Assembly (NCBI GenBank): GCA_025362295.1 | Contig: JANYGX010000001.1 | Location: forward strand, 1-64,000 | Source: Sphingomonadales bacterium | GTDB lineage: Bacteria; Pseudomonadota; Alphaproteobacteria; Sphingomonadales; Sphingomonadaceae | DNA: 64,000 bases | Direction: 5' to 3' | Shown: positions 57,915 to 60,095 of the stretch, piece by piece | Numbering within the stretch: the stretch's first letter is position 1 | Layout: each line of letters opens with the position of its first letter | Notes under the pieces: model-generated | Seen by the model: only the letters and a program-made list of their open reading frames with translations | The model's database searches: none | Told to the model about the DNA's origin: nothing | Position numbers and translations under genes: made by a program

Positions 57915-58436
57915 TTAAAACGGAATTTCGTCATCCATGTCGTTGCCGCCGCCAAAGCCGCCACTGTCACCGCGACTGCTGCTGCCAGCATTGCCAGCAT
58001 AGCTTGAGGTTGGCTTACCGCCGCCGCCAGATTTATAGCCACTGCTGCTTTCGCCATCCCGATCGCCAGACATGCCGCCGCCATCACTCTTGCCGTCCAG
58101 CATGGTAAGCTCACCACGGAACTTTTGCAGCACCACTTCGGTGGTGTATTTTGTCTGGCCTTCCTTGTCGGTCCATTTGCGGGTTGAGAGCTGGCCTTCC
58201 AGATAGACCTGCGAGCCTTTGCGCAGATACTGCTCCGAAATCTTGCCAAGCGCTTCATTGAAAATCACGATATTATGCCACTCCGTGCGCTCGCGGCGTT
58301 CACCGGACATTTTGTCTTTCCACGATTCGGATGTGGCTACAGAAAAACTGACAATCTTGCCGCCGTCGTTGGTGGTCCGAATTTCAGGGTCTTTGCCCAG
58401 TCTGCCCACCAATATAACTTTGTTTACGCCAGCCAT
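57915..58436 (-). CDS. ssb: single-stranded DNA-binding protein
   Basis: 173 residues: OB-fold (1-110) with [17 protein letters not shown] and [19 protein letters not shown], a Gly/Ser-rich linker with repeated SGGGG-like runs, and the acidic partner-binding tip DMDDEIPF. Ordinary. Confidence 0.95.
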
Positions 58437-58540
58437 ATGTTCCTCATTCTATATAAAATTTAATATTAATAGATAAGGTTGATGCATACAAGCAAACTGT
58501 TCTTCCCTCTTTATTTCTTAACTCTATGCGCCTATATCGG

Positions 58541-58893
58541 ATATGTCAGGGCAACCTGGCTATGGTGATAAATGTTGGCGTGGAATACCCATCACGGACC
58601 CGGGGGCAGTACCCGGCGCCTCCACCACCAGCTGTTTTCAGACACAAAACAGCTGCTGTGGGGGCGAACCAGGATCGACGGGTGGCTAAAGACGTTAATT
58701 TTGCCCGGCCCCGCTGTACGCCGTAAAACTGCACATAATCTTAGATGCCAACGATAACGAGGCATTTGCTATCGCCGCGTAACGAACGCCCTTAGGGGCT
58801 AAAGTTATCCGGTTCTAGCGGGGTTCGGAATGCACCCGGCAACAGAAGCAAAATCCGCGGTCCGGAGGGCACCGGGTAACAGAAGCCCTCCAA
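58541..58893 (+). ncRNA. ssrA: permuted two-piece tmRNA
   Basis: Rescues stalled ribosomes by trans-translation. Gene order is permuted: first the acceptor piece ending CGCCTCC-A-CCA (58617-58627), then a spacer holding a perfect hairpin AGCTGTTTT/AAAACAGCT, then the coding piece beginning GGGGGCG (58660-58666), which pairs with CGCCTCC to make the acceptor stem. CCAGGATCGACGGGTGG follows as the D-like region. The tag reading frame GCC...TAA (58747-58782) encodes ANDNEAFAIAA. The T stem CCGGG/CCCGG has a loop GGCAGTA without the normal TTC, as known for permuted tmRNAs. Outer ends are approximate; a GGAGGGC/GCCCTCC hairpin closes the 3' side. Confidence 0.92.
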
Positions 58894-58969
58894 CATAGAC
58901 TGCAACTCTTCTCTTGACCTTGGCGTGACTTCGGTTGATCTTAGAATTTCATTAATCTGAAGTAAGCTG

Positions 58970-59452
58970 ATGACAACCGAGAGCCTGATTCCCTATGATG
59001 AGATCGTGCAGGAGGCCCTGCGTGCGGTGATTGGCCGTGTGCTGACACAAGTGAAGACAGAGGGGCTGCTGGGTGACCATCATTTTTATATTGGCTATAA
59101 AACTAAGCATGAAGGCGTGGTGATGCCAAAGTGGCTGGCGGCGAAATACCCCGAAGAAATCACCATTGTTATCCAGCACCGCTATTGGGATTTGAAGGTT
59201 GAGCCGCTGCATTTTGAGGTCGGGCTCTCTTTCAACCAGCGCTCGGAAAAACTGGTGGTGCCTTATGCCGCTGTCACCAGCTTCGTTGACCCTTCGGTGG
59301 ATTTTGCCTTGCAATTTCAGGTTCAAAACAGTGAGCAGGACTTAGAACCACTGGAAAGCCACGCTGAACCTGAGCAGGATACCCCGCCAGTTGAACCCAA
59401 AGAACCCGGCGCCAACGTGGTATCGTTAGACCGATTTCGCAAAAAAACATAA
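58970..59452 (+). CDS. sspB: ClpXP adaptor protein SspB
   Basis: Binds the tmRNA tag and delivers tagged proteins to ClpXP. 160 residues. Alphaproteobacterial SspB pattern: IPYDEIVQEALRAVIGRVL, HFYIGYKTKHEGVVMP, PEEITIVIQHRYWDLKV, LSFNQRSEKLVVPYAAVTSF; a flexible Glu/Pro linker; and the ClpX-binding tail NVVSLDRFRKK. It begins about 75 bases after the tmRNA and ten bases before gmk. Confidence 0.94.
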   Translation: MTTESLIPYDEIVQEALRAVIGRVLTQVKTEGLLGDHHFYIGYKTKHEGVVMPKWLAAKYPEEITIVIQHRYWDLKVEPLHFEVGLSFNQRSEKLVVPYAAVTSFVDPSVDFALQFQVQNSEQDLEPLESHAEPEQDTPPVEPKEPGANVVSLDRFRKKT

Positions 59453-59462
59453 ATATATTAAT

Positions 59463-60095
59463 ATGTTGGATAAAGACCCCAGCCGTCGAGGCTTGCTGAT
59501 GATTATATCGTCGCCGTCCGGTGCCGGGAAAACCAGCCTGTCCCAGCGTTTGCTCATCGACGATCCTGGCCTTAGCATGTCCGTATCCGCCACCACACGG
59601 CCGCCACGACCTGGCGAAGTTGATGGCAAGGATTATCATTTCGTCAGTGACGCCAGATTTGATGCTATGGTGTCCGATCATGCTTTTCTTGAGCATGCCC
59701 AAGTGTTCGACCATCGCTATGGCACGCCGCGTGCCGGTGTCGAGATCAACCTCGGCCACGGTCAGGATGTGTTGTTCGATATCGATTGGCAGGGCACCCA
59801 GCAACTGCGCGACCGGGTTGAGCAGGATGTGGTCGCGGTGTTCATATTGCCGCCGTCGATGACGGTGTTGCAGGAGCGCCTGACCAGTCGCGCCAAAGAT
59901 AGCCCGGATGTTATCGCGCGCCGCATGGCCAAAGCCGCCAGTGAAATCAGCCATTATGCCGAATATGAGTATGTGCTGATCAATCAGGCTCTTGAAGCTT
60001 GCCTGGCGCAACTGAAGCATATTCTGGCAGGCGAGCGCTTGAAACGAAAGCGGCAAACCGCATTATCAGAATTTGTACAAGGGTTACTGGAGTAG
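59463..60095 (+). CDS. gmk: guanylate kinase
   Basis: Phosphorylates GMP to GDP. 210 residues. P-loop SSPSGAGKTSLSQRLL at about 17-32, the GMP-binding SVSATTRPPRPGEVDGKDYHF, and DVLFDIDWQGTQQL. Start ATG 10 bases after sspB, so probably co-transcribed; the usual upstream partner yicC is not here. Confidence 0.95.
   Translation: MLDKDPSRRGLLMIISSPSGAGKTSLSQRLLIDDPGLSMSVSATTRPPRPGEVDGKDYHFVSDARFDAMVSDHAFLEHAQVFDHRYGTPRAGVEINLGHGQDVLFDIDWQGTQQLRDRVEQDVVAVFILPPSMTVLQERLTSRAKDSPDVIARRMAKAASEISHYAEYEYVLINQALEACLAQLKHILAGERLKRKRQTALSEFVQGLLE

Follow-up and report, generated by a model that had tools for sequence, protein, structure and literature searches.

The closest described relative of the RNA discussed here is the two-piece tmRNA of Caulobacter crescentus (Rfam family RF01849), which is characterized by a permuted gene order, an encoded CCA, a spacer, a coding piece that carries the tag, the T loop GGC[A/G]GTA and a terminal pseudoknot with the loop AACAGAA. 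In the accessible portions of PMC1168896, this tmRNA is modelled with the pseudoknots PK1 to PK3, pk2 and pk3 included (chain A, 213 residues), and helix 5 of other tmRNAs is described as containing the stop codon. According to the available part of PMC3985003, the coding RNAs of two-piece tmRNAs have, as a rule, no more than two pseudoknots, one on either side of the tag. Replacement of one pseudoknot by two small tandem ones, PK4a and PK4b, is described in the same portions of PMC1168896 for the one-piece tmRNA of cyanobacteria. The pseudoknots that follow the tag in the E. coli tmRNA are reported, in excerpts of PMC3985003 and PMC1168896, to be dispensable in vitro and interchangeable, and to help folding and processing.

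We analysed a window of 64,000 nucleotides, located on contig 19 of a 2.59 Mb Sphingomonadales genome (G000), probably of the Sphingomonadaceae as delimited by GTDB, that carries a tmRNA gene (ssrA) followed by sspB. The tmRNA encoded in this window has the gene order, encoded CCA, spacer, tag-bearing coding piece, T loop and terminal pseudoknot of its C. crescentus counterpart but differs from it in that this pseudoknot appears to be present twice. The cyanobacterial PK4a/PK4b pair, as presented in that source, is likewise a tandem but belongs to another lineage, to a one-piece RNA and to the PK4 position, whereas the pseudoknots in the window lie directly after the tag hairpin. We consider it likely that the locus encodes an ordinary alphaproteobacterial two-piece tmRNA, with presumed processing and predicted mature ends, in the ancestral ssrA-sspB order and with a tandem terminal pseudoknot of Sphingomonadales, for which the parts, conservation and covariation are read from the sequence and a duplication and a role are proposed.

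The initial annotation of the locus recognized a permuted tmRNA directly followed by sspB, and both genes are present. ARAGORN calls a permuted tmRNA with the tag ANDNEAFAIAA at 58532-58873, RF01849 matches 58506-58856 (210.3 bits against a gathering score of 50, E = 1.9e-59), RF04321 matches the same RNA with 118.5 bits, and the sspB product matches PF04386 (E = 1.5e-40, 139.2 bits against a cut-off of 27). On the forward strand, the initial, conserved portion of the RF01849 alignment (58506..58540), a putative leader or promoter region, precedes the acceptor piece (58541..58627, from the RF01849 and RF04321 alignments, 5' end approximate), which includes a T arm (58600-58616, loop GGCAGTA) and, as read from the sequence, the acceptor strand (58617-58623) and an encoded ACCA at its 3' end (58624-58627). 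A spacer of 32 bases (58628..58659), presumably removed in processing, separates it from the coding piece, which starts at 58660 and is traced as far as the last paired base at 58891. The acceptor half comes first and the coding half follows, as in other permuted tmRNAs. Across the two pieces, 58617-58623 and 58660-58666 form an acceptor stem of seven pairs, the third of which is G-U, the alanine identity pair. The tag reading frame identified by ARAGORN (58747..58782, GCC...GCG TAA) begins with the resume alanine codon and its tag ends in AA, as expected of an alphaproteobacterial permuted tmRNA, and the stop codon opens a hairpin resembling helix 5 (58780..58807, TAAC/GTTA and GCCC/GGGC). 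The divergent upstream neighbour, on the reverse strand, is ssb (57915..58436; PF00436, TIGR00621 above cut-off). Downstream, on the forward strand, sspB (58970..59452, ATG at 58970) encodes a protein of the alphaproteobacterial type with 160 amino acids and is followed by gmk, the guanylate kinase gene (59463..60095; PF00625, TIGR03263 above cut-off), with only 10 bases between the two genes. The genome contains one SmpB gene, on another contig (C3; PF01668, E = 1.4e-57).

The permuted gene, judging by its sequence, presumably yields two RNA pieces: the precursor would be cut around the spacer, and the resulting acceptor and coding pieces would re-pair. The alanyl-tmRNA would then, together with SmpB, rescue stalled ribosomes and append AANDNEAFAIAA to the nascent protein, and SspB, by analogy, would tether the tagged proteins to ClpXP.

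For comparison, we assembled a family and order set, in which 57 of the 59 genomes searched contain the RNA (the window's own included), and a class set, in which 143 of 152 searched genomes matched and 141 passed the cut-off, giving 139 alphaproteobacterial loci. The class set omits the window itself, one partial match (G182), the second match in G154 and all matches below the cut-off. In 22 of the 139 class loci the tmRNA escaped ARAGORN, and in L150 it was misplaced; Rfam coordinates were used to score adjacency in these 23. ARAGORN also overlooked the tmRNA in L023 and L047.

Several properties that the initial annotation had singled out are common among relatives. The tag was described as short, yet 11 codons is a usual length: 91 of the 116 class tags have 9-13 codons, and the commonest lengths are 12, 10 or 11 codons. 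The AIAA ending, noted as unusual, is indeed rare in the class set (only 7 of 116) but prevails in the window's family, where 25 of 34 tags end in AIAA, with ANDNEALAIAA in 17 genomes and ANDNEAFAIAA in eight, the window's own included. The T loop, noted as lacking its usual bases, has the consensus of the class: GGC[A/G]GTA was found in 39 of the 46 loci compared, including the window, and the RF01849 consensus is GGCgGUA; the seven exceptions are three wrong regular-expression matches, one offset match and three variants. The perfect hairpin in the spacer exists and, at 10 bp (58629-58638/58646-58655), exceeds by one pair the nine originally assigned to it; for 58626-58662, the folding energy is -13.6 kcal/mol, and 6 of 200 shuffles are equally good. 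There is little remarkable about such a hairpin: 45 of the 46 spacers compared, dissimilar in sequence, fold into some hairpin, scored when four or more opening brackets stood in succession, with L043 the only one without a fold. The spacer hairpin thus seems to be a general feature that may help expose the processing sites. Much longer tags, of 20-32 codons, some with internal ANDN-like repeats, are predicted in seven loci (L096, L105, L163, L165, L182, L190, L195), in genomes of about 0.7-2.0 Mb.

All the elements named in the initial annotation are there, but the list omitted the most unusual one. Instead of a single terminal pseudoknot, two abutting pseudoknots that share the loop AACAGAA close the predicted coding piece (58821-58891, forward strand); they were delineated by pattern matches and stem fits across relatives, and by a swap test of the stem strands. 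In copy 1 (58821-58857), stem 1 is GGGT/ACCC (58821-58824/58834-58837), stem 2 is CGGA-A-TGC/GCA-AAA-TCCG (58826-58833/58848-58857), interrupted by a 1x3 internal loop, and the loop is GGCAACAGAA (58841-58847). In copy 2 (58858-58891), stem 1 is CGGT/ACCG (58858-58861/58871-58874), stem 2 is an uninterrupted GGAGGGC/GCCCTCC (58864-58870/58885-58891), and the loop is GGTAACAGAA (58878-58884). The RF01849 match ends inside copy 1 (58856), so that copy 2 lies past it, and the ARAGORN call ends inside copy 2 (58873). Measured in 10 loci of the family, the two stop 34-35 and 16-18 bases short of the end of copy 2, respectively. The trinucleotide CAC follows the terminal pseudoknot in 27 of 34 family genomes and also in many relatives with a single pseudoknot; it is absent in seven of the 34, the window among these.

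ViennaRNA, which does not allow pseudoknots, folds this stretch of the window otherwise, at -43.2 kcal/mol (z -3.16), which 1 of 200 shuffles matched. This minimum-energy fold uses a competing perfect helix of 10 bp, 58804-58813/58871-58880, in which the base of the stop-codon hairpin pairs with copy 2, so an alternative fold is possible in the window. We rejected a long hairpin without pseudoknots (58795-58889) as a general structure: its key 10-bp helix is found in the window only, the next best being 8 bp (L055), with 4-6 bp in the other 32 genomes.

Both copies show conserved, covarying pairing. With the 5' strand of stem 1 chosen among seven offsets, all four pairs of this stem form in each copy in 34 of 34 family genomes. 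In copy 1, the stem is CGGT/ACCG in 29 genomes, GGGT/ACCC in two (the window included), CGGC/GCCG in two and CGGT/GCCG in one; copy 2 shows seven pair combinations across the family. The changes affect both sides of the stem, for example, C-G to G-C in copy 1 of the window. When the strands of stem 2 were exchanged between genomes, the native combinations in copy 2 averaged -14.33 compared with -9.9 kcal/mol for the swapped ones, and none of 20000 permutations was as good (33 distinct sequences). For copy 1, covariation is weaker, with -7.52 native versus -6.21 kcal/mol swapped and 4 of 20000 permutations as good (25 distinct sequences). In this test, kinship among the genera was taken into account only through the use of distinct sequences. 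Under the best simple model, which has some freedom in the fitted loop of stem 2, this stem is interrupted in 32 of 35 cases in copy 1 and continuous in 33 of 35 in copy 2. Taken together, the pairing, the swap test and the form of stem 2 indicate that the two copies are distinct and that both appear to be maintained.

The tandem arrangement was found in every tmRNA compared from the window's family. RF01849 matches 33 of 35 family genomes in the order set, and two further family genomes came from the class search; all 35 genomes with the RNA (34 parsed plus L047), each of a different genus, contain both copies, and in all 34 parsed genomes copy 2 sits 34-39 bases after copy 1. The two family genomes without an RF01849 match, G017 and G025, are each 96% complete. 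Elsewhere in the order, where the single or double state was judged by eye and stems were fitted only in the tandem cases, the tandem is present in 7 of 24 genomes: three of five in f2, three of four in f6, one of two in f7, none in the single f3 genome, and none of four in each of f4, f5 and f8. The f3 genome has a single pseudoknot with decayed copies downstream. In the f6 loci L017 and L054, copy 2 retains its stems with a changed loop, a type of case that pattern counts would miss.

The loop motif occurs somewhere in 138 of the 139 class loci, and all 116 class tmRNAs correctly placed by ARAGORN have AACAGA no more than 135 bases away from the stop codon. A tandem by the strict loop pattern was detected in two of the 139 loci, both from the window's family, and in none of the 137 class loci outside it. 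Relaxing the pattern for the 116 loci recovered the same two plus L137 and L170, both of which we attribute to chance, the stems being absent on inspection by eye. A search for the tandem pattern in named genomes returned at least 119 stretches. Of these, 110 are tmRNAs in which the tag is followed by two copies, and eight more lie within about 250 bases of the locus edge, with no tmRNA call; the match in L248 (Lachnospiraceae) contains no Rfam tmRNA and was discarded as a chance match. Among the 80 stretches with titles listed, 76 come from Sphingomonadales or from genera that we assume to belong there, the rest being L208, L232, L248 and L276. The pseudoknot does not behave as a dispersed repeat: in the window genome, the pattern GGYAACAGAAGCN{0,8}CC hits the two tmRNA copies and one site on contig C30.

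We mapped the tandem state onto an rpoB tree of 28 genomes, with two outgroup genomes as its root. Of the 33 family genomes that carry the RNA, 6 are in the tree; it omits G036, which gave no match, and G054, which gave 70 positions, and G046 and G048 are partial. The tandem state is confined to a group of 20 genomes (SH-aLRT 97), and f4, f8 and the outgroup have no tandem. The f5 genomes fall inside the tandem-bearing group, yet carry no tandem. The state requires five changes across the 28 rows, with at least two forced by well-supported branches, so that a single gain would need losses. One gain followed by several losses is a plausible scenario.

The terminal pseudoknot was probably duplicated in the window's family and in some members of sister families, after which the upstream copy took the place of PK2 and evolved its interrupted stem 2. 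Copy 2 would then correspond to the usual terminal pseudoknot, called PK3 in PMC1168896, and copy 1 would occupy a place that in other alphaproteobacteria holds PK2 or nothing, having most likely originated by tandem duplication. The common stem 1 and loop, not seen by eye in the matching region of other alphaproteobacteria, favour duplication. It is unlikely, in our assessment, that there was no duplication and that copies 1 and 2 are simply the canonical PK2 and PK3 with converged loops. The order of elements, namely, the stop-codon hairpin and two pseudoknots, does coincide with the tag-helix 5-PK2-PK3 succession given for Caulobacter in the accessible part of PMC1168896, and copy 1 has a structure of its own, with the interrupted stem 2. 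Set against this canonical assignment are the stem 1 (most often CGGT/ACCG) and loop shared by the two copies, the confinement of the strict tandem to two family loci in the class set, with only chance matches added by the relaxed scan, and the short hairpin without an AACAGAA loop that long-form alphaproteobacteria show, by eye, before the terminal pseudoknot.

Under the duplication scenario, the twin pseudoknots would give the coding piece a longer structured 3' end, and they might stiffen and protect this end and aid folding, as reported for the E. coli tmRNA pseudoknots. By this analogy, we tentatively suggest a role in stability and 3'-end protection; the main alternative is a near-neutral duplication, with the copies retained for folding only. 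In the open-licence literature, where most subscription journals are absent, we found no report of this pseudoknot duplication, and the tandem pseudoknot is an apparently undescribed, well-supported variant of a known RNA. The permuted gene is already known, and an sspB neighbour is common in the class. If this duplication reading holds, tmRNA pseudoknots would be spare, copyable modules that a single order can gain and lose, and RF01849 would place the 3' ends of these tmRNAs about 35 bases too early. A corrected tmRNA 3' end in a large, well-sequenced group would bear on the mapping of islands integrated at tmRNA genes. Furthermore, the occurrence of one or two copies within one order offers a natural comparative series for the role of the post-tag pseudoknots, in RNAs whose 3' terminus is an exposed pseudoknot rather than a tRNA end.

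The ssrA-sspB linkage, which the initial annotation highlighted, is widespread. In the window, 78 bases lie between position 58891, where pairing in the RNA ends, and the sspB ATG, close to the approximately 75 originally given. We scored sspB as adjacent when its profile match lay downstream on the same strand at less than 600 bases, or slightly overlapped the RNA end, with distances measured to the start of the profile match rather than to the start codon; L142, L158 and L170, with less than 600 bases downstream in the locus, were scored as not adjacent. By this measure, adjacency holds in 91 of the 139 class loci (76 of 116 placed by ARAGORN and 15 of 23 placed via Rfam), with a median gap of 59.5 bases in the 76 adjacent loci placed by ARAGORN, so the linkage is probably inherited. 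In the order set, sspB lies within 400 bases in 14 of the 57 genomes, that is, in 3 of 33 from the window's family (G000, G003, G030) and in 11 of 24 from the other families, and within about 3.3 kb in ten more genomes. Common in the class and rare in the family, the adjacency looks like a retained ancestral order; most simply, it was the original state of the class, and most of the window's family has lost it. An operon-like neighbourhood of this kind is unsurprising. No paper on the ssrA-sspB linkage was found in the open-licence literature, to which most subscription journals do not belong.

The SspB protein itself is an ordinary member of the SspB-alpha adaptors, with nothing notably different. 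Its structural relatives in PDB are 2nys, 2qas and 2qaz, the last of which ('SspB Protein') aligns with E = 2.2e-29, and all share the PF04386 domain; no NCBIfam model matched the window protein at E = 0.001. The C-terminal tail VVSLDRFRKK aligns to 2nys, which has the same VVSLDxFRKK tail, and we presume, by analogy, that it is the ClpX-docking tail.

The initial annotation proposed that the adjacency would allow the tag and its adaptor to evolve jointly, so that ssrA and sspB would be selected as a unit. The frequency and tightness of the adjacency in the class are in line with this proposal. No terminator-like site was found in 58430-59480, though shuffles average just 1.0, so co-transcription is possible. 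However, the gap also contains a promoter-like site (58920-58947, score 9 of 12; the region has three such sites against 1.0 expected), and sspB may accordingly have its own promoter. Moreover, tight adjacency is kept in so few family genomes, yet all 33 carry both genes and a much similar tag. We calculated the mutual information of tag position -5, the counterpart of the tyrosine that SspB contacts in the E. coli tag, with every SspB column in 135 genomes. Among these 135 tag/SspB pairs, no column clearly stands out in the whole set (114 usable rows; top value 0.15, median 0.05). For the 57 rows of the order set, the highest value is 0.35 versus a median of 0.11; a block of about 25 of 34 rows recurs there, which suggests that this signal comes from one clade. 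Within the family, close linkage accompanies phenylalanine at position -5, which is present in all seven genomes with sspB at 2 kb or less and in one (G007) of the 26 with sspB farther away or on another contig. Striking as this pattern is, it may reflect a single lineage split, and we did not count it as evidence of coevolution. Joint evolution of tag and adaptor as the reason for the adjacency is improbable.

Finally, it is very improbable that copy 2 is an integration scar, that is, a 3' end duplicated by a genomic island outside the functional RNA, because, even though tmRNA genes are known island targets (as stated in the accessible part of PMC11915505) and six loci (L021, L025, L026, L036, L037, L051) contain extra tmRNA 3'-end fragments farther downstream, copy 2 keeps its constant placement across 34 genomes of as many genera, has a continuous and strongly covarying stem 2 where a scar would decay, and is followed by the same CAC as the pseudoknot of many single-pseudoknot relatives. 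The downstream fragments in these six loci are possibly themselves island-integration scars or a small repeat. They are spaced mostly at about 94-98 bases (43 in L051), and, in several loci, the segments between them have similar cores that read GGTCCTCGCCCC or nearly so.
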